A DNA stretch of 64,000 bases from Candidatus Thiodiazotropha sp. LNASS1 (lineage in GTDB: Bacteria; Pseudomonadota; Gammaproteobacteria; Chromatiales; Chromatiaceae), in contig NZ_OZ156465.1 of assembly GCF_964212655.1 (NCBI RefSeq), positions 248,001-312,000 of the forward strand, given 5' to 3'. Numbering within the stretch: position 1 is the first letter of the stretch; each line of letters begins with the position of its first letter. The translations under genes were made by a program, and so were the position numbers. The notes beneath the pieces were generated by a model. That model saw only the letters and a program-made list of their open reading frames with translations, made no database searches and had not been told where the DNA came from. Shown here in pieces: positions 1-63,008 of the stretch.

Positions 1-2
1 TG

Positions 3-2093
3 GCTTCTCGATGTAAATCAAGAATCAGACAGAATCAACACGCGCCCTGGTGTCAAGGATTAATATTTGTCACTGGTGGTTTAGGCCAGGACATAGAAAT
101 ATCTAATGGCGACTATGACCTTGCCGTTTACAGCAAAGAGCACATAATAGATGCACTCACCAATTCTGAATTCATTACCGCCCGATACAAGCATAAACTT
201 GAACGATACCAACGAGAGCTGGCGGTTAATGCAATTTGTGACTTTAAGCTGCTCAAAGAAAAAGACCAGCGTGTATCAAACTATATCAAAATCAGAAAAT
301 TATTTACCAAGAAGGATTTTGAGGTATGGCTGGTTAAGCCTGAAGGCCATACGTTTGATTACCAGTATTGGATGAAATTTGTTGATATCACTTCTGTCCA
401 AAGTGACTATGCGGAGAAACTTCGCGCTCAGTTAAAAAAAGAATACTACCTTCTGAGTGAGCTATCTGATATTCCTTTAGTGCCAGCGGTTCTTACCTAC
501 CATGATGACGGTGAGTCCATAGCATTGGTACACCAGGAAATACTTGGGCAACCATTGTCAACTAGCCCCGACCGGAACAGGGTAGAAGTGTTTATGTCGG
601 TATTGGAAGCGCTAGTAAACATGAAATCTAAAGGAGTCTTGCACAGAGCTCTTTCGCTGGAGTCCATTTACGTTAATGACGGCAGAGTTCAATTAGCAAA
701 TGTAGGATATGCTTACAGCCCCGATATAAACACTCTAGCGAATGCCTCCCAGCTAGAAGTGCCGTGGCTACCTCTGGAGTACCTGGAGAAAGGTATCTAT
801 ACGGGGAAATCACTAAGCTATCAATTTGCACTAACCTTCATGCCGCTTATAGCTGAGAACCCACCATCTTCTGCTTCAACCTTGGACTTTCAAACAGAGT
901 CATTCACACCAAAGCTCAAAAAGGAGTTTGCGGGGATACAAGGATTGTCCGATTGGGTAAATGCAGCGTCCAACCATGACATGGACAGCAGACCGGAATT
1001 AGAAGAGTTACTGTCCTGTTTCGATGAGGACAGCCTGCCGCTCGTTGAAACCTCGGAAATTAAGGCAGGCTCAACTATTGCTAACAAGTACAGGCTGGAA
1101 GAATGTATTGGGCGTGGTGGTACATCGTCTATATGGCGGGCAAGGCATTTAATTGGTGACTATGATTGCTGCTTAAAGATTCTTGACTCTTTTGATGGCG
1201 CGGACGAATTAGCAAAGAAGGAATTTGAAATACTCCGTGTCCTCTACCATCCCAATATCGTGCGAATATTCGATCTCGATATTGTTCCAGGGAACGATAA
1301 TTATTTCCTCACTTGTGAATACCTTGATGGCTCGACACTTGATCAGTTGGAAAACCCGACCACGGAAGCGTTACTAACATATTTTGAGCAAATTCTTTCC
1401 GCGCTCCAATATCTGCACCGGATGGGTAGGATGCACAAGGATGTTAAACCAGAAAATATAATGGTCGTGGCGGAAAAAGCCTACCTTATCGATTTCAATA
1501 TTTCTTTGGCAGATTGCAAACTCTTAGGAACTACGCGATTTAAAGACCCGCTGGTGAAAATCAATGGTTGGCACTCAAGCGCTGATCTATATTCTTTGGT
1601 ACTAACTTTCTCTGAAATGATTGCTGGTGTTCATCCTTTTGTTGATAATGACGAAATACCCTGCCTCGAAGCAAACCCAGGGCTTTCTGGAAGGATTAAT
1701 GGCCTCCCAGATGCCTTGAGAGTAAAGTTTGAACAAACTTTGCGTCATGAGGTAAATTGGAGCACCATTGACGATTATCTCGCATGGTTCAAGCTTACTA
1801 GGCAGGTTAACGTAGACATTCCTCAGAAGATTATTAATCGCTGGGAAATTAAAAAGGGATATATGAGCAAAGTGTTAACAACCATGCTCGGCGATATGCA
1901 ACCCCGCTCCCGTGAAGTAGTAAAAAGAAATACCCTGAAGGCCTACGGAATAGTAGGGAATAAATCAAACAAGGGGTCAGTCAATGCCGCAATCAGCATG
2001 TTGAAATCCGGTGGGATTATTGAAGAGCACGGAAAAAAAATCCGCCTGACAAGTAACTTCTTATCCGATTGGGAAATTGTAAAAGGGAAATAA
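3..2093 (+). CDS. Tandem pseudokinase-kinase protein, 5' end cut by window edge
   Basis: The frame is open from the left edge, so the gene is partial; the first in-frame ATG (372) is probably internal. Visible codons 1-120 weakly resemble the end of a NERD-type nuclease-related domain (inference). Codons about 130-330 form a first kinase-like lobe whose catalytic loop reads HRALSLESIY, with Ala in place of the catalytic Asp and no DFG, so it is probably a pseudokinase. Codons about 360-560 form a second kinase domain with a glycine loop (GRGGTSS), a Lys in LKIL, a catalytic loop HKDVKPEN and an IDFN metal site, which looks active as a Ser/Thr kinase. The last ~90 residues look like a winged helix. 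It converges with the methyltransferase gene, with 4 bases between stops. Base composition is A+T-rich compared with the core genes to the right. Substrate unknown. Confidence 0.8.
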   Translation, partial: ASRCKSRIRQNQHAPWCQGLIFVTGGLGQDIEISNGDYDLAVYSKEHIIDALTNSEFITARYKHKLERYQRELAVNAICDFKLLKEKDQRVSNYIKIRKLFTKKDFEVWLVKPEGHTFDYQYWMKFVDITSVQSDYAEKLRAQLKKEYYLLSELSDIPLVPAVLTYHDDGESIALVHQEILGQPLSTSPDRNRVEVFMSVLEALVNMKSKGVLHRALSLESIYVNDGRVQLANVGYAYSPDINTLANASQLEVPWLPLEYLEKGIYTGKSLSYQFALTFMPLIAENPPSSASTLDFQTESFTPKLKKEFAGIQGLSDWVNAASNHDMDSRPELEELLSCFDEDSLPLVETSEIKAGSTIANKYRLEECIGRGGTSSIWRARHLIGDYDCCLKILDSFDGADELAKKEFEILRVLYHPNIVRIFDLDIVPGNDNYFLTCEYLDGSTLDQLENPTTEALLTYFEQILSALQYLHRMGRMHKDVKPENIMVVAEKAYLIDFNISLADCKLLGTTRFKDPLVKINGWHSSADLYSLVLTFSEMIAGVHPFVDNDEIPCLEANPGLSGRINGLPDALRVKFEQTLRHEVNWSTIDDYLAWFKLTRQVNVDIPQKIINRWEIKKGYMSKVLTTMLGDMQPRSREVVKRNTLKAYGIVGNKSNKGSVNAAISMLKSGGIIEEHGKKIRLTSNFLSDWEIVKGK

Positions 2094-2097
2094 CCCT

Positions 2098-3972
2098 CTA
2101 CGCAAATTGATTCTTATTTGGTAATGGCGGTGGCTCAAACCTACCTCCATAATCAAAGAAATCCACGTCCTGATCACGCATTTTAATTTTTATGCGCTCT
2201 ACGAGTAAAGGAACATCTTTGCTCCAATCATCATACCGCATGATGCTGACCTTACCGGAAGTCATATGTGCTTTTACAAGGTGGAATTTCTCTAAGTCCC
2301 CATAGAGTTGAGTAGCGCAGCCAATGTAAATTCTGAGTTCTGGTGGTAATTCTCCAAGAAATTCCTTGCGGAAGGTATAGCTATGGCCCTCCGATAATTC
2401 ACCAGAATTTATTTGCTTATACGCTTTGTTGCACGCCTCTTCTATCAGTTCAGGATTCCCTACTGCAAATAGCGCTTCCCTCGACTGTTCTATCGCATCG
2501 CTGTAACTACTGTAGAAATACTTGATATCCCGTTTCAGGCTATCAGGCATCTTTGTCTGAGGTTTTCGTTTACCAAACAAACCTAGTGCAAAATATACCA
2601 GAAGATCATCCTTGCGCTTTTGTTGTGCCTCTTCAAATAGCTCACTACCAAAATGAGTAATAAGCGCCTGGTGTGCTTTGTTGTGAGATCCAGCGACTCT
2701 ACGAATTTGCTCAGAAAATTCAAATTCATTATTCGCAGGAATTCTGCCAAGCTCCAGGGAGGTTTCCCAAAAATCAGTAAACAGCTCCAGGTGTTTATCG
2801 ATAATATCCTTCCGTAAAGCTGGCTCTCTCGATCTGATTCGCCTCTGTGTCTTTTGTTGCCAGTCACGCCTTACATGCTGCCTCTCTAACAGGAACAGCT
2901 GTTCTTCCATCTTGTCTTTGAAAACGACAAATATTCCCTGGCCGACAGCCACAGCATTCTCTTCCAATGTGGTTTCTACATAGGATCGGATTTCTGACTG
3001 AGAATAGTATTTCTGAAAGGTTTTTCTGCTGGTGATTACCCCATCCTTATAGGGTGTAAATTGCCGGATAACGCTTTCCCCGGCAATCATTACTGATACG
3101 ATGAGAAGCTTATCGGTGTACTCCCAGGCCCTTCTCAGAGTTTCGTTTCTTTCCTCTCTTTCCTCAATGACATTGAGTACAAAGCCAAGATTGACAATGT
3201 CACTATTTATCAGCTCCCCATCCGGGAAATGCACCGGGTCCCATCCTGAAATATCTATTCCATGTGCTTCGAGTTCCCGTAGGTCATCGCCTTTTCCACA
3301 GCCGTAATCGAGCACGGTAAACTCACCATTAAGGTAATTGTGTCGAGCAAGAACCTGCATAGGTGCTGAGAGCTGATTTCGATCAATCGCAGTCCTATGG
3401 CGCTCTACTTCAATTCCTTTGGATATTGGTACAACATCGGTAGTATCTCTATCTGCCTTTGGGTGTAGTCTACCTTCTTCATCAAGGTAATATCCCTTGT
3501 TGGAAATAAGTCTTTCCCAGTTTTTCCTGAATCCGATATTGCGCGTATTTTCATACAGGCCAATCTTTTCTCCCTCTGCGGTTATCTCCTTGAAAACTGG
3601 TGAGAGTGGAAAGTCTTCTTTTACGAATGTTTCCTTTCGGTGCAGGATGGGCGGGTTATCGGATTTATCGTAGGAGGCTTTACGCATAGATAGCTTCGAT
3701 AAATCTACCGTGTAACTATGTTTCAACGCGGGGTAACTATAGCTCTCAAAATCGGGATAACTTAGGAATGCAACTTTAAAATCACGTTTGTAGAGTTTTA
3801 GAATATTCCAGTCGGTAGATGGGATTTTTAGGGCAGAAGCAATTTTTCCCAGAACGTTCGATAGCTCTTCAGGCAACGCGGTACTTGCGCTTTGATGGAT
3901 ATAAACAGAATCGGGAAGATGCTTTCCTATATCTATATTTTTGATATGATTTTTATATTGCTCGAATTCCAC
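2098..3972 (-). CDS. Putative DNA-phosphorothioation-associated methyltransferase
   Basis: The 624-residue protein carries an S-adenosylmethionine-binding motif I (LDYGCGKGDD, residues 221-230) followed by GIDISGWDP, typical of class I methyltransferases. The N-terminal block before it (KHLPDSVYIHQS, then WNILKLYKRDFKVAFLSYPDF) and the overall length fit the family often found beside dnd phosphorothioation and restriction genes; I recognise this from memory, not from a search. The target base or residue is unknown. The start is a GTG. It is divergent from the DUF2779 gene and convergent with the kinase gene. No dndA-E or dpt gene is visible in the window, so if the family call is right this copy acts without a neighbouring Dnd system or with one beyond the left edge. 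Confidence 0.7.
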   Translation of the reverse strand: MEFEQYKNHIKNIDIGKHLPDSVYIHQSASTALPEELSNVLGKIASALKIPSTDWNILKLYKRDFKVAFLSYPDFESYSYPALKHSYTVDLSKLSMRKASYDKSDNPPILHRKETFVKEDFPLSPVFKEITAEGEKIGLYENTRNIGFRKNWERLISNKGYYLDEEGRLHPKADRDTTDVVPISKGIEVERHRTAIDRNQLSAPMQVLARHNYLNGEFTVLDYGCGKGDDLRELEAHGIDISGWDPVHFPDGELINSDIVNLGFVLNVIEEREERNETLRRAWEYTDKLLIVSVMIAGESVIRQFTPYKDGVITSRKTFQKYYSQSEIRSYVETTLEENAVAVGQGIFVVFKDKMEEQLFLLERQHVRRDWQQKTQRRIRSREPALRKDIIDKHLELFTDFWETSLELGRIPANNEFEFSEQIRRVAGSHNKAHQALITHFGSELFEEAQQKRKDDLLVYFALGLFGKRKPQTKMPDSLKRDIKYFYSSYSDAIEQSREALFAVGNPELIEEACNKAYKQINSGELSEGHSYTFRKEFLGELPPELRIYIGCATQLYGDLEKFHLVKAHMTSGKVSIMRYDDWSKDVPLLVERIKIKMRDQDVDFFDYGGRFEPPPLPNKNQFA

Positions 3973-4111
3973 AGTGAATCACCGGCCATTTGCTGAGGCA
4001 GTTTATTCGCAATACATCGCTAGAGATTGCTCGCTAATTGGTTCAATGCATATTATATACGCACAAATAAGGAGCATTTTTACACTTTTTCGCTTAAAGT
4101 TTGCAAGCAGC

Positions 4112-5536
4112 ATGGATACCATACAGCTCACAAAAACAAATTTCATACTATATTTACATTGTCCTAGGTCACTTTGGCTATTAAAGCATGACCCAGGGAA
4201 CTATCCCCAGGGTGAATTCTCTACTTTCATGCAGAAGCTCTTGCGTGAGGGCTATGAGGTTGAACGATACGTCAAACAGTTCTTTGATAGCGCTGGTGAT
4301 CGGAATGTCAGTTTTCAGGCGGAGTTTAGGACAGATGACGGTCTATATGCGCGTGTAGACGCACTGGAAAGCATGGGTAATGGGGCGACTGCACTCTATG
4401 AGATCAAGTCTTCTACCAGCGTCAAAACTGACGCCAAGCATAACCACATAAAAGACGCCTGTTTCCAGAAGATCTGCGCGGAACGTGCCGGGCAGCATAT
4501 CGACCGCGTGTTTTTGGTTCATTTAAATGGTGACTATGTTCGAAACGGTGCAATCGAGCCCGGCGCGATGCTTGTCTTCGCCGATATAACGGAGGCAGTC
4601 GAAGAGGTTGTGCCTTCAACGAGTAAAGAGATCGACGCCGCGTTGGCGTTTCTGGCGAGCGAACAGAATATGAGCGGCTGTTCCTGTGTTGAGAAAACAC
4701 GCGCCAATCATTGCGATGCCTTTGCGATTTTCAACCCTGAAGTTCCGACGCCATCGATCTATAGTCTGCCGAGGTTGCGCGCAAACAAGATCGACGATCT
4801 TCGTTCGATGAATGTGCTTGGGCTGGACGATGTTCCTGACGATTTCCCTTTGTCCGAAAACCAGCGCATTGTCGTTGACTCTTTTCAGGAGGGTGAGCCT
4901 AAGGTTTCGGTACAGCCTATCAGACAATTTCTTTCCGAGCTGATTTTTCCGCTCTACTTCTTCGACTACGAAACTTTTTCTTCCGCCGTGCCGCTGCTTG
5001 ACCGCACCAGCCCGCATAAGCATTTTCCTGTTCAGTATTCGCTGCACATTTTGGATGCCGACGGTTTGCTCCACCACAAGGAGTATCTTGAGCGTGAGGC
5101 CCGTTTGCCAGATCGTTTGCTCGACAGGATGAAGGAGGATATCGGGCCTGAGGGTAGCTTGGTTTCTTGGCACGCATCATTTGAGAAAACCCAAAGTAGG
5201 CAAATGGCTGCGTTATTTCCGGACGAGGCGGATTTCCTTAACGACCTGAATGATCGAATGGTGGATCTGGAAGATCTGTTTAAGACGGCCTATGTAGACG
5301 CCAGATTTGATGGTTCCACATCCATCAAGAAGGTGTTGCAGGTGGTGTGCCCCCATCTCGACTACAGCGACCTGGATGTTCAGGATGGCGCGTCGGCGAT
5401 GGAGTCCTGGAAACGGATGCTCGATGCAGCGCCTGAAGAGGTGGATGGTATTGCTCAATCGCTGTTGCGTTATTGCGAGCGGGATACCTTTGCCATGGTC
5501 GAAATTTATCACTTTTTGATGGAATTAATCAGCTAG
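4112..5536 (+). CDS. DUF2779 protein: PD-(D/E)XK-like plus DEDD exonuclease-like domains
   Basis: The N-terminal half resembles Cas4/RecB-type nucleases: LTKTNFILYLHCPRSLWL near the start, ARVDAL with D83, YEIKSS at 96-101 (the E-x-K core), and Cys17 plus Cys190, Cys192 and Cys201, which could hold a 4Fe-4S cluster. The C-terminal half looks like a DEDD 3'-5' exonuclease: FFDYET (D285, E287), an Asp/Glu-rich segment DLEDLF near 386, and YCERDT (D458). This pairing is typical of the DUF2779 family. The ATG at 4112 places the conserved opening at the N-terminus; the frame also opens at a GTG at 3974, but that extension looks non-conserved. No good ribosome site is seen. A role in nucleic-acid defence or repair is inferred. 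Confidence 0.75.
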   Translation: MDTIQLTKTNFILYLHCPRSLWLLKHDPGNYPQGEFSTFMQKLLREGYEVERYVKQFFDSAGDRNVSFQAEFRTDDGLYARVDALESMGNGATALYEIKSSTSVKTDAKHNHIKDACFQKICAERAGQHIDRVFLVHLNGDYVRNGAIEPGAMLVFADITEAVEEVVPSTSKEIDAALAFLASEQNMSGCSCVEKTRANHCDAFAIFNPEVPTPSIYSLPRLRANKIDDLRSMNVLGLDDVPDDFPLSENQRIVVDSFQEGEPKVSVQPIRQFLSELIFPLYFFDYETFSSAVPLLDRTSPHKHFPVQYSLHILDADGLLHHKEYLEREARLPDRLLDRMKEDIGPEGSLVSWHASFEKTQSRQMAALFPDEADFLNDLNDRMVDLEDLFKTAYVDARFDGSTSIKKVLQVVCPHLDYSDLDVQDGASAMESWKRMLDAAPEEVDGIAQSLLRYCERDTFAMVEIYHFLMELIS

Positions 5537-5889
5537 CGGGCGTTGGTCACCCATATTTAGGCAATCAATAACTCGTGAATTCAATTAGCCGGGAAATACT
5601 TACAATCCTGGCGTATTTCAGCAAAAAGTAGTGTCTTTGTCTTAGCCGTTGGGGAGGTTACGTTAAAGGAGTTCAGATTACTCCCATTTGTATCTCAGAT
5701 GCATCCCAAGGCTTCTACTAGGGGGTGAGGCGGGAAATAAAAGTCCCTATTTTGCGTTCCACCCACGTTCCACTCTTACGACAATCAGGGACAACGAGAG
5801 ACAACAAGATGGAATCTCAAATACAAAAAAAGCACTGTAAAAACAGTGTCTTTCGTTGTCTATGGTAGTTTCTGATTGTTCTTTGAATT
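5537..5889. other. Island boundary without a gene; candidate integrase-type repeats
   Basis: No convincing coding sequence lies in this 353-base stretch between the DUF2779 gene and the tRNA-Leu 3' end. It holds two related motif sets in opposite orientation: ACAATCAG followed by ACAACGAGAGAC on the plus strand (5781-5802), and their near-complement on the other strand (5848-5880), where ten extra bases separate the two blocks. Such arm-like repeats next to a tRNA 3' end are reminiscent of integrase recognition sequences. No integrase gene is in the window. Confidence 0.4.
5824..5848 (-). terminator. Rho-independent terminator of tRNA-Leu
   Basis: Read on the minus strand, downstream of the tRNA 3' end, the sequence forms a 6-bp stem CACTGT/ACAGTG with a short loop followed by a run of seven T, the classical intrinsic terminator layout. 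Confidence 0.65.
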
Positions 5890-5976
5890 TGGTGCCGAGG
5901 AGAGGACTTGAACCTCCACGGGGTTGCCCCCACTAGCACCTGAAGCTAGCGTGTCTACCAATTTCACCACCTCGGC
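5890..5976 (-). tRNA. tRNA-Leu (anticodon CAG)
   Basis: The 87-base minus-strand sequence begins GCCGAGGTGG and ends CTCGGCACCA, so the acceptor stem pairs and the CCA tail is encoded. It contains GGTTCAAGTCC for the T arm, an anticodon arm GCTAGCTTCAGGTGCTAG that presents CAG, and the long variable arm of class II tRNAs. It closely parallels enterobacterial tRNA-Leu1. Its 3' end faces the accessory segment on the left, the orientation expected if the island integrated into the tRNA. Confidence 0.95.
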
Positions 5977-6160
5977 TAGGATGTGGTTTGCCGGTGGCCG
6001 GCGTAGAGACCGCGCACTCTACAACCAGTTTCTTTTTCTGTCAATCCTCTTGGTAGATCTGGTTGGCTGGCCAATCTCAACTGTGGTAGTTTGCTGTGAT
6101 GCGCGCCATCGGATAAGTGATATCGGATCCGAATGGCGCTTACTTAAGCCAAGAGCCGCC

Positions 6161-6237
6161 GTCATCCCGGCACAGGCCGGGATCCAGAATGCTTGATGGT
6201 GACGGTATTGCTGGATTCCGGCCTGCGCCGGAATGAC
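6161..6237. repeat. Inverted pair of REP-like palindromes
   Basis: Two 27-base copies face each other: GTCATCCCGGCACAGGCC... at 6161-6187 and, in reverse, ...GGCCTGCGCCGGAATGAC at 6211-6237. Each copy is itself a hairpin (CCCGGC/GCCGGG-like), and 23 bases separate them. This resembles dispersed GTCATTCCGGCGCAGGCCGGAATCCAG-type elements arranged as a BIME-like pair. The rest of the 315-base gap between the tRNA and the peptidase gene shows nothing else. Confidence 0.7.
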
Positions 6238-6291
6238 GAAAGTAGTGAAATTTGTCCTCAAGTAACTGCCATTCATATCGGACCCTAGTGC

Positions 6292-48966: not shown

Positions 48967-50291
48967 ACGATCAGGATCTCTTTGCCCGGAACGGGGGCGG
49001 AGAGAACCGCCCACTCGCAGACCGGATGCGGCCGCGTACCCTGGAACAGTTCATCGGCCAGTCCCACATTGTCTCAGAGGGCAAACCTCTGCGGCGGGCC
49101 ATCCAGGAGGACCGCCTCCATTCAATGATCTTCTGGGGTCCCCCGGGTACGGGGAAGACCACCTTGGCACGGATGATCGCACAACACTCAGGTGCACAGT
49201 TTCTCAGCCTCTCGGCAGTGTTGTCCGGTGTCAAGGAGATCCGTGCCTCAGTCGAGCAGGCGAAGCTCTATAAACAACAGACGCAACGACAGACCGTTCT
49301 TTTCATCGATGAGGTACACCGGTTCAATAAATCCCAACAGGATGCCTTTCTGCCCCATGTGGAGGATGGCACCGTGGTCTTCATCGGCGCCACCACCGAA
49401 AATCCATCATTTGAGCTCAACAATGCGCTGCTTTCCCGTGCCCGCACCTATGTGCTGAAAGCGCTGACACATGAAGAACTGAAACAGATCATCGACCTGG
49501 CGCTGAAAGATGCCGGCAATGGACTTGGCGCAAGAGAGTTTCATATCAGTGACAAGGCCCGCACCCTGCTAGCGGAAGCGGCGGATGGCGATGCCAGAAG
49601 GGCACTGAACCTGTTGGAGATAGCTGCCGACCTGACCGAGTCGGGAGAGATCGATGAAACGGTCGTGGCGGAGGTGGCCGGCGGTACGCTGCGCCGTTTC
49701 GATAAAGGCGGTGAAGCCTTCTACGATCAGATATCGGCCCTGCACAAATCGGTCAGGGGCTCTGCCCCGGATGCGGCCCTCTACTGGCTGGCAAGGATGG
49801 TCGACGGCGGTTGCGATCCCCTCTACATCGCCCGCAGGGTCGTACGCATGGCCTCGGAGGATATCGGTAATGCGGATCCGCGTGCCCTGCAGCTGGCCCT
49901 GAATGCCTGGGATACCCAGCAACGGCTCGGCAGCCCGGAAGGGGAACTGGCTATCGCGCAAGCCGTGGTCTACATGGCGTGCGCCCCCAAGAGCAATGCT
50001 GTTTATACAGCATGGAATGCCGCCCTAACCGAAGCCAAGACATCCGGCTCCCTAGAGGTTCCTCTGCATCTACGCAATGCACCCACCAAACTGATGAAAG
50101 AGCTCGAATACGGTAAGACCTACCGCTATGCCCACGATGAACCCAATGCCTACACTGCTGGTGAAAACTATATGCCGGAACATTTAGCGGGCCATCGATA
50201 CTACTATCCGGTTGATCGGGGCATGGAGATCAGGATAGCCGAAAAGCTGGAATTTCTGCGTAGATTGGATGAAGAGGCTGCAGACGATTGA
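48963..50291 (+). CDS. rarA: Replication-associated recombination protein A
   Basis: RarA (MgsA) is a clamp-loader-like AAA+ ATPase acting at stalled forks. The 442-residue product has Walker [10 protein letters not shown], the sensor segment [24 protein letters not shown], and the C-terminal tetramerisation region ending GYTYARYDE-like ([10 protein letters not shown]). ATGA overlap with lolA shows coupling. In many relatives crcB or serS follows; here the Tad locus does. Confidence 0.96.
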
Positions 50292-50430
50292 ACAACTCAG
50301 CGGCCTCTATGTTGAAGACAGAAACGCACAGTCTGGAAAGACATCCCACCACTAGAGCATCCAAAAAAAATTCCGATATTAGCGTCCGCTTTTAATAAAT
50401 TTACACAACAGAGATCCTATATATCGCCAA

Positions 50431-50454
50431 ATTATGTGAATTGGCTCACATAAT
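50431..50454. promoter_or_regulatory. Consensus CRP/Vfr-type operator
   Basis: TGTGA-ATTGGC-TCACA at 50435-50450 matches the cAMP receptor protein core exactly, and the dyad extends to 9-bp perfect arms with a 6-base spacer. It is centred about 152 bases before the first gene of the Tad region, within the 302-base gap after rarA, which holds no gene. Confidence 0.7.
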
Positions 50455-50593
50455 CTTGTGGTCATTTTCTGAAATGTACCTCTAACAGTCGATCAGGCGT
50501 TCCCATAACTGGGTATTAAACGTTAATCTTTTTCCCCGATCATTGGATGGTCATTAATGGAATGACTAAGTTGTATCAGAGGTATATAAGGAC

Positions 50594-51487
50594 ATGAAAG
50601 GAAGTTCAAAGGTTATAGTGCTGGTATCGATCTCCCTGATGCTGGCAATGCAAGGATGCGGCGGGGGCGGAGGCTCCTCAGACGATCCAGTCAATACGGG
50701 TGAATCAAACAACAACGACTCAACGGCTGACAATTCGAACAGTGGTTACACAGGATTGGATTCCCAAGCGACTGTCGATGAATCCAACGCCAAGGATCTG
50801 GCTATTGCCGCTGCATCAGGTATCGCGCAAGTTGTAGAGGAAGAGAGTGTCAGTGCCCCCTTTTCTGTTCCTGGCACAGCAGCCAGATCCTATGAACCAA
50901 CGGAAGAGATGCATCAGCAAACCACGGCAGAGGTATGCACTCAAGGTGGAGAGGCGATAGTCGAGGAAATTACCGAAGAAACTGACCACTGGGTAAACGT
51001 ATTTTCCTTGAACAATTGCAGTTACGGCGAGGGATTGCACATCTACACCTTCACTGGGAGAGTGCGGCACACCTATTCCAAACAATCGAATGCCTTTGAC
51101 TATGTCATGACAGGTACGGTGTCATCAGCCAGCAGCCAATCAACGGATATCAACTGGCGTGTGGCTTGCGACGCAAATTTCAGATGCAACATGTCTTCCG
51201 ATTTCCAAGGTTTCGACGGCCGTAGTTACCGTGTCACTGAGATTAATGTTACAGATGATGGTAACTCGGTTTATACGGCAGCAGGCAGGATCTATGATCC
51301 TATTCATGGGTATATTGATGTAACCACGGAAATCCCGTTCACGACGGGTTGCGAAAACGGACGACCTGGTTCGGGACGTTTGAATTTTACCGGTGCTGAC
51401 CAGACCTTCGGCTACATAGAGTTTGTCAGTTGTACCGAGTATGTAGTCGCAACCAGTAATGGAACAGCGAATAGTTACACCTGGTAA
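50594..51487 (+). CDS. Putative lipoprotein at the head of the Tad locus
   Basis: The 297-residue precursor has a signal with lipobox (LAMQGC, Cys about 22), then a Gly run and a Ser/Asn/Asp-rich linker, then a folded region from about 55 with four Cys. I recognise no family. The CRP-type operator lies upstream, and the next gene follows 24 bases after the stop, suggesting one transcript. Surface or envelope location is inferred from the lipobox. Confidence 0.75.
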   Translation: MKGSSKVIVLVSISLMLAMQGCGGGGGSSDDPVNTGESNNNDSTADNSNSGYTGLDSQATVDESNAKDLAIAAASGIAQVVEEESVSAPFSVPGTAARSYEPTEEMHQQTTAEVCTQGGEAIVEEITEETDHWVNVFSLNNCSYGEGLHIYTFTGRVRHTYSKQSNAFDYVMTGTVSSASSQSTDINWRVACDANFRCNMSSDFQGFDGRSYRVTEINVTDDGNSVYTAAGRIYDPIHGYIDVTTEIPFTTGCENGRPGSGRLNFTGADQTFGYIEFVSCTEYVVATSNGTANSYTW

Positions 51488-51511
51488 ACAAGGACTAAGG
51501 ACCATAACAGG

Positions 51512-52204
51512 ATGTATGCAGGTGAACGCATGCAGTTGATAGCAGGATGTGTCTTATCTGCCTGTGTATTCGCATGCGATGCTGCTGATCTCATCGAATC
51601 GACATCCAAGGGCTGGAAAGCATTCGCGAACAAGCCATTCAGTGCGGTATTGGTCGAATACAGAAGAGATAGTGCGGACGTATACAGTAAATCCAGAATC
51701 TATCTAAGTCCTATGGGGATGCGCACTGAACGCCTTTCTGTTCAGAACGGTGAACCTGATCTTATAGTGATCAAGAACCACCATACTGAACAGGTGTGGC
51801 TGATTAACCCGGTCCAACACTACTTCACTGAATTACCAATCGATAAAACTAAAGAAACGGAGCGGGTGATAGAAGGAGAGAAAAGGCCGCTGTTAGGTGT
51901 TCTGGCAAACGAGCCTTGCTATGGAATGAGGGCTGAGAAGCAATCCGTTCGAGCGGTCGGAGATTCGGAACTGAGTATCTGGCATTGCTTGGATGGTGAT
52001 GGCAAGCAACATCTGCAACACTTCAGTACGCTGCTTGGTGTAGTCATTCGTCAGGAATTTCAGGATGGGCGAATAAGCGAGCTGCAAGATATTGCATTTA
52101 TCGATGATTCAGGAAAATATTTCCAACCTTCCAGTGACATGCAGCAGATTTCAATTGGAGAATTGATTACCGGAAGGGTGACATTACCGGATTTTGTCGA
52201 ATGA
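51512..52204 (+). CDS. Exported protein of unknown function (possibly LolA-like fold)
   Basis: The 230-residue protein has an N-terminal hydrophobic segment ending near CDAADL, consistent with export. An internal ATG at 51530 would start the signal peptide more cleanly. The body has short beta-strand-like segments (SAVLVEYRRD, KSRIYLSPMGMRTERLS, QVWLINP) reminiscent of LolA/LolB-like folds, but no firm family. It lies directly upstream of the Flp pilin gene. Confidence 0.7.
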   Translation: MYAGERMQLIAGCVLSACVFACDAADLIESTSKGWKAFANKPFSAVLVEYRRDSADVYSKSRIYLSPMGMRTERLSVQNGEPDLIVIKNHHTEQVWLINPVQHYFTELPIDKTKETERVIEGEKRPLLGVLANEPCYGMRAEKQSVRAVGDSELSIWHCLDGDGKQHLQHFSTLLGVVIRQEFQDGRISELQDIAFIDDSGKYFQPSSDMQQISIGELITGRVTLPDFVE

Positions 52205-52344
52205 GGTTGGAATATGGATTGGCAGATAACTGGTGAGGATTAACTATTGAAGGAGGGTGTCCATTTATCAAGTGTCTCTATTTGCTTGGGATATATAAAT
52301 AGATCTTGAAGGAAAACATATTTTATCAATCGAACCATTCATTC

Positions 52345-52362
52345 AAGGAGCTGTTAAAGGAG
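52345..52362 (+). promoter_or_regulatory. Doubled Shine-Dalgarno before the pilin gene
   Basis: AAGGAGCT occurs twice (52345 and 52357). The second copy is eight bases before the ATG, ideal for initiation. The duplication may enhance ribosome loading on the pilin mRNA. Confidence 0.5.
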
Positions 52363-52370
52363 CTACTGAT

Positions 52371-52670
52371 ATGTCTATAAAACTTAATAAGTCAGCAAGG
52401 AAATCACACTTTGGTCAAGGTATGACCGAGTACATAATCATAGTTGCCGTCATAGCGATTGCCGCTATCGGCGCATTCGGTTATTTCGGGCAGATCGTTG
52501 AGACACAGATTGCCGGTGTTGGCCAGGAGCTTGGTGGCAATAGTGGTGCGGATGCGCGAACTGCTGCAGGTGATCTGGGTCAAGCATCGCAAGATATGGC
52601 GGCAGAGGCCAACAACAGTATGACCAACTACCATGATAATGATTCTGAAGCTGCGCCTGGGGGAGGTTAA
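52371..52670 (+). CDS. flp: Flp/Tad-type pilin
   Basis: The 99-residue precursor has a short basic leader, then G15^QGMTEY with the type IVb signature Glu5-Tyr6 after the cleavage site, followed by a hydrophobic helix (IIIVAVIAIAAIGAFGYF). The C-terminal half is Gly/Asn/Asp-rich. A TadV-type peptidase would cleave after G15; none is visible. The strong ribosome site and the stem-loop after it fit the major pilin. Confidence 0.88.
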   Translation: MSIKLNKSARKSHFGQGMTEYIIIVAVIAIAAIGAFGYFGQIVETQIAGVGQELGGNSGADARTAAGDLGQASQDMAAEANNSMTNYHDNDSEAAPGGG

Positions 52671-52712
52671 TCGGTCTATTGCTGCAGCAAAATGATCATA
52701 ATATCGTAGTAG

Positions 52713-52753
52713 TCGTCCGGTTTTTTCTATTTCTGATGGAAAAAATCGGACGA
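52713..52753 (+). terminator. 14-bp stem-loop between flp and the TadG-like gene
   Basis: TCGTCCGGTTTTTT (52713-52726) pairs with AAAAAATCGGACGA (52740-52753), allowing one G-U, around a 13-base loop. There is no T run after the stem, so it may stop RNA decay from the 3' side or act as a partial terminator, giving more pilin mRNA than downstream mRNA. Confidence 0.55.
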
Positions 52754-52769
52754 AATTAGGTGTAGTTCA

Positions 52770-54713
52770 ATGACTCACATATTTCGATCCAAGGAAACCG
52801 GTCAAGCACTGCCGCTGGGAATTGCTTTTCTTATGTCCACTATTCTGCTTGGTTTGGTTTTATTCAACACAGGCCAAACCGCATCGGAAAAATCCCGCCT
52901 TGTAAATACAGCTGATGCCGCCGCTTACAGTGGTCTTATTTGGCAGGCGCGCGCACTCAACTATCAGGCTTATACAAATAGGGCGATGGTTGCCAACCAG
53001 GTCTCAATCGGACAGATGGTGAGTCTCACCTCATGGACTCAATACGCATATATCGTTGCCCGCAATATAGATTACATCGGTACCTGGTTTCCTATCATCA
53101 GACCCTATACCCAGGCGGCAGAATCGATAACAGAGATGATTGACGGTGTAATGGTAAATATTGCTGAGGCCTTCATACCTGTTGTTGACACTGTCAATGG
53201 TATTTTGAGTCAGTCACAACATGCAATATTTTTGGCAAGTTTCGCTGCAACACCCGGTATTGTGAGAGAGGTTGTCGAGAGAAATGATGATCGTTACAAC
53301 GTCGATACAGCTTATGCGGTTATCGGTATGGGACAAAATGGAGTGAATTGGAACAGTTTTACTGAGAGATATGAAGATAACGATGGACTTTTACGCAAGG
53401 CAAACGTAGTAAATCGCTCAAAGGATGAATTTACCAGTTCTAGGAATCTTCGAACTGGTGACATGTTGCCTGGCGCACCAAATAGACTGGATCTTGGTAT
53501 TGTACGCGTTTGGGTTAAAAAAGAGGGGAGGACAAATTTTATATCCGAGGAGTCAACGTCAAGCAGTTATATATTTCAGAATAACAGTTCAGCAAGTGAT
53601 TTAGAATGGGAATGGAAAGGTAAGGATACACTCTCCTTTCACATAGAGGTATGGGACTGTGACCATCGTGGATGTGGCTGGGATCATGATGAAATTCCAT
53701 TGGGGTGGGGCTCTCGTTATGTCAATGGTGATTTTGAATGTGACGATAGCCAATACCAGAGCAGCAGTTGGTGGGGATGGTATTTCTTTAACGATGGTTG
53801 TCCCCGCTATATGCAAGAAAACAGATGGGCAGAAAGGCTTGCCAATATGGAAAAGGAAGAACTTGATGCAGAGTATGAAGGTATCAGGGCTTACTATGAC
53901 TTGCAGGACTTAAGTCGTGAAAACCGCGATCCCCGATTGACTTTGCGTATCGAAGTTGAACTGCCGCAAAATCATGTGCGAACAGCATCGAAAATAGACG
54001 GCCTAGGGTCGGATTCTGTGCCAAATGAAGAACTGAGAAATGGCATAGGTGAGGGAATGTTCGGAACGCAAGACCAGATGGCCGGTGAAGGTTTGGCTGC
54101 AATTTCCAGCGGCGAACTTTTTTTTCATCCACCTGATGACTACATACCGTCAAGAAGAAGGGGTAGATATGAAATTGCCAGTTTGTTCAGCCCATATTGG
54201 GAAGTGAGATTGACCGAAACACCTTCGTCAAATCGATTCATGGCATGGGCATTGAGAGATCCTTCACTCTTATCGGATGGTGCATCCGGTGTTGCTGCGG
54301 GCGTACAGCATTACATAGGAGAAAGAGAAGAAGGATTGCAGCGGTTGCTTGACCTTGAAGAGTCACTGCAAACGCAATTAAGCAGCACAACGGATGAGGA
54401 AAGACGCGCAGAACTAGAGAACCAGCTGGTTAATGTGGATTCACAGCTCACACAACTGCAAAATATGCATTACAGTACAGATTTGGTGGCAAACGACCTG
54501 CAGCAAGGTATTTCACAAGGTGTCAGTACGGCGGCACAAACACAGCTCGGACAGTATGAACAGATGCTTGAACAGTATGCTCAGCAACAGGGAGAGGCAT
54601 ATGTTGATCAGTTTGAAGATGAGATTGTCGACCAGGTGACTGATCAACTGCAGCAAGCACTGGAGGACGCTGTTGAAGAGGCAGCGGAAAGTGCAATCAC
54701 ATCATTCTTGTGA
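52770..54713 (+). CDS. Large TadG/TadE-like pilus assembly protein
   Basis: The 647-residue protein starts with a membrane segment (about 14-34: QALPLGIAFLMSTILLGLVL) followed by NTADAAAYSGL, the pattern of Flp-assembly TadE/G-like proteins. The middle is a large extracytoplasmic region with an unusual Trp/Asp/Cys-rich patch near 295-345. The C-terminal ~130 residues form a Gln-rich coiled coil. It probably sits at the pilus base or tip; it is longer than many TadG proteins and lacks a clear von Willebrand domain. Confidence 0.75.
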   Translation: MTHIFRSKETGQALPLGIAFLMSTILLGLVLFNTGQTASEKSRLVNTADAAAYSGLIWQARALNYQAYTNRAMVANQVSIGQMVSLTSWTQYAYIVARNIDYIGTWFPIIRPYTQAAESITEMIDGVMVNIAEAFIPVVDTVNGILSQSQHAIFLASFAATPGIVREVVERNDDRYNVDTAYAVIGMGQNGVNWNSFTERYEDNDGLLRKANVVNRSKDEFTSSRNLRTGDMLPGAPNRLDLGIVRVWVKKEGRTNFISEESTSSSYIFQNNSSASDLEWEWKGKDTLSFHIEVWDCDHRGCGWDHDEIPLGWGSRYVNGDFECDDSQYQSSSWWGWYFFNDGCPRYMQENRWAERLANMEKEELDAEYEGIRAYYDLQDLSRENRDPRLTLRIEVELPQNHVRTASKIDGLGSDSVPNEELRNGIGEGMFGTQDQMAGEGLAAISSGELFFHPPDDYIPSRRRGRYEIASLFSPYWEVRLTETPSSNRFMAWALRDPSLLSDGASGVAAGVQHYIGEREEGLQRLLDLEESLQTQLSSTTDEERRAELENQLVNVDSQLTQLQNMHYSTDLVANDLQQGISQGVSTAAQTQLGQYEQMLEQYAQQQGEAYVDQFEDEIVDQVTDQLQQALEDAVEEAAESAITSFL

Positions 54714-54764
54714 TTACCAATTCGGCTTTGGTATATGCGAGTTGATCAACAAAAGGAAACACTA

Positions 54765-55604
54765 ATGATAGCCATCAAACAGTGCCGATTATTGAAACAG
54801 AAGGGAAATGCCACTGTTGAAACGATCTTAATCGCAACAGTTACGGTGCCTCTGCTGACAGGTATTCCACTGATGGGCAAGATCGCAGATATTAATCATA
54901 CGACTGCTCAGTCAAGTCGCTATCTGGCTTGGGAACAAACGATTGCAGGGCCGCATTACAAAGATATCGAGCAATTGGAGACAGAAGTCAATAATCGATT
55001 TTTTGTTCGTCCTGATCTACAGATACGAACAGACCGTGAGGCACTTACCGATGAGGGGTTTGAGAACCCGTTTTGGAGCGGCTTTGGCTATGATGAAGAT
55101 GATGAGGAAAATCGTCTTGTGGTACTTGGCAGAGGTTTTGATGCAGCAGTCAGCAACCAACGTCCCGAGAGTATAGCGGGCACGCTTTCAGCAGGGATCA
55201 ATGAAATTGGCGATACACTTGCCAGTATTACAGGTGGTCAGTGGGATATAGAGGAGAATGGTTTATATACTGGCCGGGTATCGATTGAAGTCGCTGGTAA
55301 TACAATTTTGACATCAGGTGTTGACTGTAATGGACAGGAATCTGAAACTATAGCAGCATGTGTTACCCGTTCAAACACAATCTATGCTGATAGTTGGGAC
55401 GCCAGAGATCCTGCACAAGCTGCAAGACGTTCACGGTCATTCGTCCCGGCCGGAGCTCTGGAATCGGTAGGTGATGCGCTGGCTGGTGTGGCAACCATTG
55501 TACCCTTCTTTGCGGATATTCAAGGTCTTCATTCTGATAGCAATGGGGGGTTTGGTTATATTAACCCTCATGTGTTACCGATGGATCGCTATGCGGAAGA
55601 CTAA
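54765..55604 (+). CDS. TadE-like pseudopilin
   Basis: The 279-residue precursor has a basic leader, then G^NATVE with Glu at +5 and a hydrophobic helix (TILIATVTVPLLTGIPLMG), so it is a prepilin-type protein with a large C-terminal domain. The ATG at 54765 is six bases after AAGGAAA and matches the leader; an ATG 30 bases upstream is weaker. It overlaps the next gene. Confidence 0.72.
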   Translation: MIAIKQCRLLKQKGNATVETILIATVTVPLLTGIPLMGKIADINHTTAQSSRYLAWEQTIAGPHYKDIEQLETEVNNRFFVRPDLQIRTDREALTDEGFENPFWSGFGYDEDDEENRLVVLGRGFDAAVSNQRPESIAGTLSAGINEIGDTLASITGGQWDIEENGLYTGRVSIEVAGNTILTSGVDCNGQESETIAACVTRSNTIYADSWDARDPAQAARRSRSFVPAGALESVGDALAGVATIVPFFADIQGLHSDSNGGFGYINPHVLPMDRYAED

Positions 55605-56325
55605 AGTGGCATTTAATGTAAAACAATTCATCGATATCTGGCGTTATGCAATGTGTTCTATAGCGTTTAGCAGTACTTGCTTTGCTTATGACATTCACGA
55701 TGTTGCAGACCCGCCAGTTGCATCAGTGATATACGTGGGCGAGGTTGTTCAAAACGGAATGCCATTGCAGATGAAGCAGTTTTCTACAGAGTCTTCGGTA
55801 ACGGAAGTGTTGGCATTCTACAAGCAGCGCTGGTCAGACATATCAAGACACCAGAACAACGTGCCTGCCTATTTGGAAAAAAATGTCGGAGAATGGCGTG
55901 TATTAAGTAAGATGGAAACAGATAAAAGCGTTGTCGTGCAGGCGCGAAAATCAAACCGGGGATCTACTGAGGGTTATATATCAGTCAGTGATATTTCTCG
56001 TGCAACAAAGCCGAACCGGTGGTCAAGTGAATTTCCTCGCATCCAAGGTACCCAGCTTTTATCAAATACAGAATCGATTGACAAGGGAAGGGTTGCATAT
56101 ACGCTGGTGCTTTTCAATGACTATTCCGTGCATGTAAATAGAGACTATTATCGTGAAAACATGCATACAGATGGTTGGCAATACGCTAGAGGAAGTGAAA
56201 AGACAAAAACAACGATACTCTACTTCAGGAGAGATCAATGGCATTGTGATATTGCAGTAACTGAAGCAGATGATGGCAAGACCATAATCATCGCCAACCT
56301 GGTAGAGATGAATGAGAGTAGCTGA
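55591..56325 (+). CDS. Exported protein with two similar domains, Tad-associated
   Basis: Translation likely starts at the ATG at 55591 (overlapping the previous gene by 14 bases) or a GTG at 55606. A signal-like segment ends near CFAYD. Residues after about 45 contain two related units, each with FYKQRW- or DYYRENM-like helices, a GEW/DGW turn, and a beta pair (VVVQAR, then GYISV; TILYFRR, then CDIAV). I recognise no family. A periplasmic accessory role in the pilus is inferred from context. Confidence 0.65.
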   Translation: MRKTKVAFNVKQFIDIWRYAMCSIAFSSTCFAYDIHDVADPPVASVIYVGEVVQNGMPLQMKQFSTESSVTEVLAFYKQRWSDISRHQNNVPAYLEKNVGEWRVLSKMETDKSVVVQARKSNRGSTEGYISVSDISRATKPNRWSSEFPRIQGTQLLSNTESIDKGRVAYTLVLFNDYSVHVNRDYYRENMHTDGWQYARGSEKTKTTILYFRRDQWHCDIAVTEADDGKTIIIANLVEMNESS

Positions 56326-56509
56326 TCAAAAAAACATACTAAGCAGACAATCAGGTCACATCGCCCTGGAGTATGCCTTAGTGACATTCATACTGGTTAT
56401 GTTCTTATTTGCACCAGTCACTGATGATAATCAGTCAGTGATGGGGCTGTTTATGGATTCGATCAGAGACTATGACCGAAATAGGTCTCTGCTCTATTCA
56501 TTACCCTAA
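56312..56509 (+). CDS. Short Flp-type minor prepilin
   Basis: The 65-residue precursor has a leader, then G^HIALEY with Glu5-Tyr6, and a hydrophobic helix (ALVTFILVMFLFAPV). After the helix only about 29 residues follow. It overlaps the preceding gene by 14 bases. It is probably a minor pilin or pseudopilin; its sequence differs from the main Flp pilin. Confidence 0.7.
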   Translation: MRVADQKNILSRQSGHIALEYALVTFILVMFLFAPVTDDNQSVMGLFMDSIRDYDRNRSLLYSLP

Positions 56510-56527
56510 ATGATCGAGTAGACAACT

Positions 56528-57364
56528 ATGGATATGATGCATGCGAAAGATTCCACAGGCCAACGAAAGAAAGTCAGTATTATCAACAAGAATGTAATTA
56601 TGTTGATAATATCATTGGCGCTTGGTGTGGGCGGGGTATATCTGACAAAGGATTTTATAGAAAAAAAGGTCAACTACTACAAAAGCCAGCTGGAAAAGAC
56701 CGAGGAGATGGTTGCTCTTGTAGTGCCGAACAGAAATATACAAAGAGGAACAGTCGTTACATTGCGTGACTTTTCTGTACGTAAAATTCCCGCAAAGTAT
56801 GCGCATAAAAATGCAGTTACTGAGTCAACATTCAGTACAGCAACTGGACAAAGAGTCAGTTTTGATATCACAAAGGGGCGGCCGCTTCTGTGGGCTCATC
56901 TTGAAGGCGGATTGATACCAACCTTTTCAGGCAAACTAAAGCCCGGCAAGAGGGCGCTTGCCTTCACAGTCGATAAAATCAATTCGATATCAGGTTTTCT
57001 CCAGCCGAATGACAAAATTGATCTGTTACTCGACTACAAGGACAGGATCATTCCGATAATTCAAAATCTGCATGTGATTGCTACTGGTCCCTATACCCAT
57101 ATAGATAAAACCGGAAGGCAGTCAGATGACTCATTTCGAATCATTACAGTTGAAGTGACGCCGGAAGTGGCAGAAAAAATTACGCTTGCTAAAAGTATTG
57201 GAAAGATCACAGCACTGTTGCGTTCACCGCAAGACGATAAATTGATTAGCGATGATCCAATGACAGTTGCGCGCTTGTTAAACAAGCCAATTCCAAAACC
57301 TAAAATCAGGAAACGGATTGTCCGAAAAGAAAAAGGAATTGAGTACATTATTGGTGGTATATGA
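56528..57364 (+). CDS. cpaB: Flp pilus assembly protein CpaB/RcpC
   Basis: The 278-residue protein has an N-terminal membrane segment (about 23-40), a SAF-type domain (VPNRNIQRGTVVTLRDFSVRKIP in part) and the C-terminal RcpC domain (KLKPGKRALAFTVDKINSISGFLQPND). CpaB sits in the periplasm beside the secretin. Alternate ATGs lie six and nine bases downstream. It precedes cpaC, the usual order. Confidence 0.88.
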   Translation: MDMMHAKDSTGQRKKVSIINKNVIMLIISLALGVGGVYLTKDFIEKKVNYYKSQLEKTEEMVALVVPNRNIQRGTVVTLRDFSVRKIPAKYAHKNAVTESTFSTATGQRVSFDITKGRPLLWAHLEGGLIPTFSGKLKPGKRALAFTVDKINSISGFLQPNDKIDLLLDYKDRIIPIIQNLHVIATGPYTHIDKTGRQSDDSFRIITVEVTPEVAEKITLAKSIGKITALLRSPQDDKLISDDPMTVARLLNKPIPKPKIRKRIVRKEKGIEYIIGGI

Positions 57365-57410
57365 GCTTGATTCTTAAACAGAATAAGGCCTTTTTGAGGA
57401 CAATCAACAA

Positions 57411-58529
57411 GTGATTAGTAAAGTCTTACAAACAGTCATCACCTTATATATGGTGATGATGGCAACCAGTGTTTATGCAAAGAATGTCGATCTGTTTATT
57501 GGTGAGGTCAGGATACTCGGTAAAGTAGCTGTTGACCGTGTTGCGATTGGACAGGCGGGTATAATCAAACTAGAGATTCTTAGTACGGATGAGTTACTGG
57601 TCATTGGCGAAAAGGCAGGAAGTACCTCCTTGCGTCTGTGGAATAAGGATGGAAGTTATAGTCAGTACAATATTCGGGTAACAGAGCAAGATCCTGAAAA
57701 GCGTGTTCGGATGGATAGTATGATAAGGATCAGTGTCAAGATGGTTGAGTTCAGAAAAAGTGCGCTCTCCAAGCTTGGTATAGACTGGTCGACGGATTTA
57801 GACGGACCAACCTTTGCGACAGTCGGCGATTTTGTAACGAACTCCCTATTCAGGTCGCCAACCTCAGCAATTGATGGCACACCACTACCTCTCAATGTGA
57901 AGCCCTTCGCGTCTTACTTTGGTATAGCGACAGCGTTGACATCACGCATAAATCTACTGGCATCAGACGGTGATGCTGTCGTGTTGTCAGAGCCGGTTCT
58001 CAGCTGCGTCAATGGTGGTACTGCCAAATTTATATCCGGTGGTGAGTATCCTATCCCCGTGACCGGTACAAATGGTGGAACCAGCGTGGAATTCAAGCAG
58101 TATGGAATAAAGCTGGATATTTCACCGCGGGTAAATAATGAAAAGCAGATATATACAACCATAAAAGCAGAAGTCAGTGAGATCGACACGTCTACAACTG
58201 TGTTGGATGTGCCGGGTATTTTAAAGAATGAAACGGAGACAATAGTTAATGTTCATTCCGGTCAGACAATCGTTATATCGGGATTGTTAAAAGCTAAACA
58301 GGGCAGAGGCACCAGTAAGGTTCCAGGACTGGGTGATTTACCTGTACTTGGCGGCCTTTTCAAGAGTAATGATATTCAGCATGAAATGTCAGAAATGGTG
58401 GTCTTTCTCACACCCGAGGTTGTTGAAATTGACGATACCTATGATCAAAGGGCAAGAAACCTGTTGGGGGTTAGAAACAATGCTGTTAATCAACTAAAGA
58501 AAGAGCTTGAATTCAGCATCCTGGATTAG
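57411..58529 (+). CDS. cpaC: Tad secretin CpaC/RcpA
   Basis: The 372-residue precursor has a signal peptide (1-23), the pilus-formation N domain (VDLFIGEVRILGKVAVDRVAIG in part; ELLVIGEKAGSTSLRLW) and the secretin domain (GDAVVLSEPVLSC, GTAKFISGGEYPIPV, PGLGDLPVLGGLF). It forms the outer-membrane ring through which the Flp pilus leaves. It is shorter than many CpaC proteins. The start is GTG. Confidence 0.88.
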   Translation: MISKVLQTVITLYMVMMATSVYAKNVDLFIGEVRILGKVAVDRVAIGQAGIIKLEILSTDELLVIGEKAGSTSLRLWNKDGSYSQYNIRVTEQDPEKRVRMDSMIRISVKMVEFRKSALSKLGIDWSTDLDGPTFATVGDFVTNSLFRSPTSAIDGTPLPLNVKPFASYFGIATALTSRINLLASDGDAVVLSEPVLSCVNGGTAKFISGGEYPIPVTGTNGGTSVEFKQYGIKLDISPRVNNEKQIYTTIKAEVSEIDTSTTVLDVPGILKNETETIVNVHSGQTIVISGLLKAKQGRGTSKVPGLGDLPVLGGLFKSNDIQHEMSEMVVFLTPEVVEIDDTYDQRARNLLGVRNNAVNQLKKELEFSILD

Positions 58530-58534
58530 TCGAA

Positions 58535-61077: not shown

Positions 61078-61079
61078 AA

Positions 61080-62000: not shown

Positions 62001-62009
62001 GAAGCTTAA

Positions 62010-62597: not shown

Positions 62598-62623
62598 CAG
62601 GTGACTGAGCAAGAGTAGGAAAC

Positions 62624-62983: not shown

Positions 62984-63008
62984 TCAGCGACTGTTTAAGA
63001 GGGCCATT

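Follow-up and report, generated by a model that had tools for sequence, protein, structure and literature searches.

A candidate Ssp-type phosphorothioate defence locus with a helicase, a MORC-like ATPase and a PLD nuclease on a mobile island of Candidatus Thiodiazotropha sp. LNASS1

Introduction

Which defence system, if any, is represented by three A+T-rich genes that stand beside a tRNA-Leu gene in Candidatus Thiodiazotropha sp. LNASS1? The genes encode a kinase, a methyltransferase and a DUF2779 protein and lie at the left end of the 64,000-nucleotide stretch analysed here (contig NZ_OZ156465.1; G000:C1:248001-312000, hereafter the window), which is part of a 4.75 Mb genome on one contig. 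The original prediction grouped them as one uncharacterised defence-like system. All three open reading frames (ORFs) are real and carry the domains named for them: the kinase ORF runs to 2093 (+), the methyltransferase gene from 2098 to 3972 (-) and the DUF2779 gene to 5536 (+). Their predicted orientation is seen in the ORF coordinates, as the kinase and methyltransferase genes converge, with 3' ends 4 bp apart, and the DUF2779 gene is divergent from the methyltransferase gene. The kinase ORF is open from the first bases of the window, so the gene is truncated by the window edge, and the three genes are the cut-off end of a larger locus and have no system of their own. The window probably holds the 3' end of an Ssp-type phosphorothioate (PT) defence locus on a mobile island, with a helicase, a MORC-like ATPase and a PLD nuclease as its predicted restriction part.

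The ssp operon and its modification module

The upstream stretch L005 (G000:C1:238001-257000), scanned by PADLOC, Pfam and NCBIfam, holds seven head-to-tail genes on one strand in the order sspB-sspC-sspD-helicase-MORC-like ATPase-PLD nuclease-NERD/pseudokinase/kinase. Profile matches place SspB (DUF4007; L005:18-938, PADLOC 307 bits), the SspC ATPase (L005:935-4414, PADLOC 1443 bits) and the SspD PAPS reductase (L005:4407-5276, PADLOC 342 bits) in a single operon, and Pfam finds PF13182 at 276 bits within this SspBCD module. They are followed by an SF2 helicase (L005:5292-6911), a MORC-like GHKL ATPase (L005:6919-8727, for which an ATG was chosen over the listed TTG), a PLD/HKD nuclease protein (L005:8776-9699) and the whole NERD kinase gene (L005:9709-12093), which encodes 794 aa and starts 292 bases left of the window (G000:C1:247709). 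The intergenic gaps from SspB through the kinase are -4, -8, 15, 7, 48 and 9 bp, the last being the distance at which the kinase gene begins past the PLD gene. The A+T-richness noted earlier is confirmed, with a GC content of 43.0% from SspB to the kinase, 42.8% in the methyltransferase gene and 49.7% in the DUF2779 gene against 56.3% in the right flank.

The search leftwards, where a known system would account for the three genes, in substance found one, the SspBCD modification system. The claim that dnd, brx and pgl core genes are missing thus holds inside the window and fails directly to its left, where SspB, SspC and SspD are encoded. The suspected defence-like content and its link to phosphorothioation are borne out by the adjoining SspBCD and by the methyltransferase, which is of TIGR04096, an established phosphorothioation-associated family. 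Because SspBCD lies directly left, the trio is rejected as a system of its own. The kinase and the methyltransferase are accounted for by SspBCD, since the former is tied to it by gene spacing and by one conserved neighbourhood, in Microbulbifer, and the latter by its family. That the three genes, which are neighbours within the window, nevertheless form a separate defence system is very improbable: gene spacing and the Microbulbifer locus place the kinase in the ssp operon, the methyltransferase is found beside dnd or ssp genes where the kinase is absent, and the three are found together in no other locus searched.

The locus probably marks host DNA with sulfur, to judge from its predicted proteins. 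A genome-wide search finds the cysteine desulfurase IscS at 735 bits; no sspA is seen in the island, and all three IscS-related matches of the genome lie outside it. The locus thus resembles systems that pair SspBCD with SspE or SspFGH in its SspB, SspC and SspD profiles and in the IscS encoded elsewhere in the genome, and differs from them in having neither an SspE domain nor a full-length SspH-like protein and in the helicase, MORC-like ATPase and PLD genes beside SspBCD. The GmrSD_N domain, which we take to be carried by SspE, has no match in the genome, although a control search matched it in 8 of 14 genomes. The query for SspH was an FtsK-type protein beside SspBCD in Azospirillum (L042), taken for SspH; its matches were confined to one 776-aa ORF, in which two separate segments of about 110-120 residues each aligned, and no full-length SspH-like protein was found in the genome (SspF and SspG were not searched for). 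The matches listed for the locus, up to 25 per protein, do not indicate DndB-E or DndFGH, the rest of the genome not having been searched for dnd, and the Dnd-type similarity of the operon proteins is weak (TIGR04095, 52.5 bits against a cut-off of 600; DndC, 24.4 against 290).

Orphan sspBCD loci of this kind are common. In the passages available of the 2021 survey PMC8092258, 2,211 of 2,678 sspBCD loci lack both sspFGH and sspE, and it is asked there whether other restriction partners exist. The cassette of helicase, MORC-like ATPase and PLD nuclease is a concrete candidate for this missing partner. The modification module itself is known; as far as searches of open-licence PubMed Central reach, its pairing with this cassette and with a stand-alone NERD kinase is undescribed, and the pairing of Ssp, MORC and PLD is not named in the portions of that literature retrieved. 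In the portion seen of PMC3506569, MORC appears in a reference only.

Distribution of the cassette

Profiles were built from 16 reference loci, namely the present one, that of Microbulbifer and 14 plasmid stretches picked via matches to the GHKL protein or the methyltransferase; a Massilia stretch with a methyltransferase match (L041) was excluded. The MORC-like GHKL gene occurs in 14 of the 16, mostly by selection. The same 14 loci all carry the helicase and SspC, whole or in part, and this is not by selection. SspB is found in 11 of these 14, some of the stretches being cut, and the PLD gene in 12. In the remaining two, from Agrobacterium and Aminobacter (L103:9001-10104 and L123:15747-16841), a different protein occupies the PLD slot. 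It presumably resembles a PD-(D/E)xK-type nuclease, and its presence in 2/14 loci is as expected of an exchangeable nuclease slot.

Among plasmids, the GHKL protein has matches in 53 records, 14 of which cover at least 80% of it. Eleven of these 14 were examined, and the helicase and SspC are present in all 11; two of the other three full-length records have an SspD match within about 5 kb, and the third, from Nocardiopsis (24% identity), is without one in the best 60 of 85 SspD matches listed. Seven of 398 genomes scanned in the phylum, the present one included, match the ATPase at E <= 1e-30. Five of the six others were examined and all encode SspB, SspC, SspD, the helicase and the PLD protein, together with the methyltransferase in three, the kinase in none and DUF2779 in none; the sixth matches the ATPase only partially. 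In viral contigs, four of seven loci with a GHKL match have the full set, and these are the ones matched across the whole ATPase. Taken together, all 20 examined loci that were selected by a full-length ATPase match alone (11 plasmid, 5 phylum, 4 viral) also carry the helicase and ssp genes, and they span four phyla.

The closest counterpart in organisation is Microbulbifer sp. YPW16 (L007), in which all eight genes occur in the present order, with the methyltransferase gene co-directional. The identities of SspB, SspC, SspD, helicase, GHKL ATPase, PLD, kinase and methyltransferase are 71, 66, 74, 44, 41, 48, 57 and 65%, respectively, and DUF2779 has no match in this 22-kb stretch. DUF4007 was found in 13 of 369 genomes of the class, 12 of them above the cut-off. 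Ten of the 11 such genomes other than the present one show SspB and SspC in the stretches examined; among the 11, one has only a weak SspD and one has a DUF4007 fragment only. Neither the kinase nor DUF2779 occurs in the stretches of these 11 genomes. G185 encodes SspB through PLD at 80-95% identity to the present proteins, with no kinase or methyltransferase in its stretch. As a side observation, its helicase is 95% identical to the present one and its SspB and SspD 80% (L113, L114), which hints at cassette exchange.

The cassette proteins

The motifs examined in the three cassette proteins are intact. Walker A, DEAH and motif VI are intact in the helicase. The GHKL ATPase has an intact N-box (ELIDNS) and intact glycine loops (DNGAGM and GMGKFGMG), and its GVSIVRAKREL agrees with the S5 motif GhXhhpXXRhl at 10 of 11 positions. 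The PLD protein has a single HKD, with HxKxxxxD as HGKVYLVD followed by GSAN. The best relatives of the ATPase family in the PDB are MORC2, MORC4 and MORC3: chains of these three proteins fill the first nine places (best E 4e-10, with the match limited to the GHKL domain), followed by SMCHD1 and PMS1. The predicted model of the ATPase has a pLDDT of 65.

An SF2 helicase and a nuclease are also the neighbours known from prokaryotic MORC operons. In the 2008 survey of these by Iyer, Abhiman and Aravind (PMC2292703), MORC-type GHKL ATPases are accompanied by SF2 helicases and occasionally by HKD domains. The present locus differs in that the partners named in the survey, as far as its text was available, are DNA methylases, and the terms 'PAPS' and 'phosphorothio' are absent from that text. 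The DndCDEA-PbeABCD system likewise shares a PbeA-like helicase (95.6 bits to the PADLOC PbeA model), a PLD domain and an ATPase that acts on DNA. Here the PLD nuclease has a gene to itself, the ATPase resembles MORC and differs from the SMC-like PbeC, and the modification genes are Ssp and not Dnd, to go by the parts seen of PMC6459918. In the parts available of a reappraisal of Dnd systems, dnd loci are described that encode an HKD nuclease and an SF2 helicase as one fused protein, and DndF is reported to occur in fusion with NERD and kinase domains.

Proposed mechanism and its alternatives

It is proposed that SspBCD, supplied by the chromosomal IscS, would exchange a non-bridging phosphate oxygen for sulfur in one strand of host DNA, the sequence expected to be marked by such a module being 5'-CCA-3'. 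The helicase, an ATP-driven MORC clamp and the single-HKD PLD nuclease would together form the restriction part, in which the helicase may track along DNA, the MORC ATPase may close on the DNA and loop it, and the PLD subunit may nick or cut DNA that is devoid of PT marks. The NERD kinase protein could provide a second sensor or effector layer, and the DUF2779 protein may be a passenger or a back-up nuclease.

An opposite logic, in which the cassette is activated by host PT and then turns on invading DNA or brings about cell death, is a tentative alternative that commands somewhat less than even probability. SspE (PMC8092258) and PbeABCD (PMC6459918) both require PT for activity according to the parts of those papers available, and PbeA contains helicase and PLD domains that resemble the separate helicase and PLD genes here (PMC6459918, likewise in part). 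SspFGH and DndFGH, on the other hand, attack DNA that lacks PT (PMC8092258, in the same portion), and sequence alone cannot discriminate between the two modes.

Alternatively, two independent systems may share the island: SspBCD would be an epigenetic module that acts alone or in regulation, and the MORC, helicase and PLD genes would form a system unrelated to it. The abundance of sspBCD loci that lack the known partners and the existence of MORC operons with methylases (PMC2292703, as above) both speak for this. It is nevertheless unlikely, as several phyla show the association of the cassette with Ssp, the two are seen in more than one orientation to each other, and the genes here overlap or lie within tens of bases of each other.

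Several observations weigh against a cassette that serves as the restriction part of an Ssp system. The cassette accompanies Ssp, yet most sampled ssp loci are devoid of it: among the ten class genomes other than the present one with SspB and SspC, only G185 has it in the stretches examined. Of the seven loci in viral contigs that match the GHKL protein, three are incomplete, one having SspBCD but no helicase or PLD gene and two having neither. The helicase of L103 and L123 (2/14 loci) fails the Walker A pattern and the PLD protein of one locus, L122, fails the HKD pattern, and the kinase neighbourhood comprises two loci. The association of cassette and Ssp would in itself be no proof that the cassette depends on PT, and the groupings of MORC, helicase and HKD genes beside methylases in the available text of the 2008 survey (PMC2292703) would make coupling to PT one of several possible pairings.

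With these points considered, restriction by the helicase-MORC-PLD cassette in a PT defence locus remains the probable reading. The wider proposition is more evenly balanced: the cassette may be a further class of SspBCD restriction partner, found on both plasmids and chromosomes and in four phyla or more, which would explain some orphan sspBCD loci and to which some lineages would add a stand-alone NERD-pseudokinase-kinase. If this were true, a MORC-type ATPase of bacteria, related to chromatin proteins of eukaryotes, would be tied to phosphorothioate marks, a link that the searches of open-licence PubMed Central did not show, and the kinase would add protein phosphorylation to sulfur-based restriction.

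The kinase

The kinase comprises an N-terminal NERD nuclease-like domain (E 4e-16) and two kinase-like lobes, of which the first lacks the catalytic Asp (HRALSLESI) and the second has HKDVKPEN. The whole protein has a Pkinase match at 1e-29 and ends in a C-terminal tail. The window (1..2093, +) holds the last 696 of its 794 residues, and the NERD end lies to the left. The tandem kinase of the original prediction is seen in the two kinase-like lobes (Pkinase E 8e-30 for the ORF in the window), with the correction that the gene is incomplete in the window and begins with a NERD domain.

The order NERD-pseudokinase-kinase is shared with PglW of BREX-2 and with some DndF proteins (PMC12839542, in the part available). 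Unlike PglW, the kinase here is a stand-alone protein of 794 aa and scores 127 bits against the PglW cut-off of 990. With PglW below its cut-off and no PglZ among the matches listed for the operon proteins, BREX type 2 or 4 is not indicated. The best-scoring NCBIfam family for the whole kinase protein is the MAD6 kinase of MADS, at 294.7 bits and thus below the curated cut-off of 460, so the protein does not qualify as MADS. DISARM is not indicated either, DrmC scoring 28 bits against a cut-off of 133 and neither DrmA nor DrmB appearing among the matches listed.

The protein is rare in the samples searched. It stands beside ssp genes in its own locus and in Microbulbifer only, and a search of genome contigs returned Microbulbifer and one weak match. 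In the class scan of 369 genomes, with at most two candidates scored per genome, two match the kinase model at E <= 1e-25, the present one and one over the kinase domain only. The kinase was not found in viral contigs. Plasmids yielded a single weak relative, within a 1,385-aa ORF of Phocaeicola, around which none of the other eight families occurs.

The methyltransferase

The methyltransferase (METHYLTRANSFERASE; window 2098..3972, -) was predicted as a Dnd-associated type, and NCBIfam agrees, with TIGR04096 at 624.9 bits against a cut-off of 150. It matches 36 plasmid records. In the five stretches examined it lies by dndB-E, by SspBCD with an FtsK-type gene, or by SspBCD with the cassette; that of Massilia (L041), which is cut by the record end, has no ssp or dnd gene in its table. 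The methyltransferase also occurs in the cassette loci of Microbulbifer and of the phylum genomes mentioned above. In the class scan 18 of 369 genomes match TIGR04096 at E <= 0.001, seven of them above the cut-off. Five of the seven also have DUF4007 above its cut-off (four of six when the present genome is left out, p 6e-6), and the two genes lie between about 1 kb (G121) and about 25 kb (G249) apart. Against a strict link, ssp genes are present in only 2 of 12 profile-matching loci of viral contigs (L145 and L146), many of these loci being partial and scored for ssp and not for dnd. The methyltransferase is a frequent accessory that is also found away from ssp genes.

The base-methyltransferase motifs looked for, DPPY-like and PC, were not found, and its target is probably something other than a DNA base. 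The AlphaFold2 model has a mean pLDDT of 83 and a pTM of 0.42. Foldseek relates it to class I methyltransferases that act on small molecules and tRNA, at low TM-scores, so no substrate can be named. The N-terminal part of the protein matches the same stretch of the profile as the C-terminal part, an internal duplication within window 2098-3972.

The DUF2779 protein

The DUF2779 protein (window 4112..5536, +) combines a Cas4-like PD-(D/E)xK half with a DEDD/RNase H-like half. The DUF2779 assignment stands, with PF11074 at 119.5 bits against a cut-off of 23.3 and a weak Cas4-like N-terminal half. A GTG start at 3974 is unlikely and the ATG at 4112 fits better, because plasmid homologues align from residues 1-6 of the latter in nearly all rows listed.

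Its membership of the system is doubtful, and it is probably a passenger. In the cyanobacterium Planktothrix a plasmid ssp operon has a DUF2779 gene between its MORC and PLD genes (L101:15917-17380), a position that would suit a Cas4/DEDD nuclease acting in the Ssp-MORC system to degrade DNA once it is nicked. There is a low probability that the present protein has such a role: none occurs in the other cassette loci scanned, and its GC content of 49.7% differs from that of the operon. DUF2779 was found in 24 of 369 class genomes (23 above the cut-off), and outside the present genome its overlap with DUF4007 is 2/22 (p 0.14), which is not clearly above chance; of these two, one has the genes on separate contigs and one has a DUF4007 fragment. 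The 29 plasmid records with DUF2779 include one, Planktothrix, that is also among the best 60 of 85 SspD matches listed, a count that speaks equally against the three window genes as a unit. The tree joins the present protein to the Planktothrix copy weakly (support 0.395); its loci span about 2.7-3.4 kb, within which neighbours were judged. DUF2779 was tried as a conserved component and rejected on its single supporting locus, the lack of a clear excess among genomes and the weak tree.

The mobile island

An island was predicted at the 3' end of the tRNA-Leu gene, and this is upheld. The tRNA-Leu (cag) gene (window 5890..5976, -), the integration site, points its 3' end towards the three genes, and the right-hand copy of a 27-bp attachment repeat lies at 5886..5912. 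The second copy, at G000:C1:115154-115180, has 26 of 27 bases the same by eye. The sister genome G350 shows the site empty: the sequence that ends at 115180 and the one that begins at 253886 both match a single contig there, overlapping by 27 bp, with a flank identity of about 94-96%. Because the flanks meet at the repeat in G350, the island is delimited as G000:C1:115154-253885 (138.7 kb), with the locus at its right end, which corresponds to window 1-5885. Further left the island holds genes that look like conjugative-transfer genes (L006), a label read from the ORFs alone. A single tyrosine-recombinase domain was found inside it, at 195117-195626.

Near the island's left end lies a giant ORF of at least 4,839 codons (L046:5484-20000), open at the stretch end and with repeat-like parts by eye. 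Beside the tRNA gene, at window 6100-6290, a repeat reads VIPAQAGIQ on both strands, with more copies in G350. A second A+T-rich stretch is found at window 50001-63000, with a GC content of 0.42-0.48 against 53.5% at 6-36 kb.

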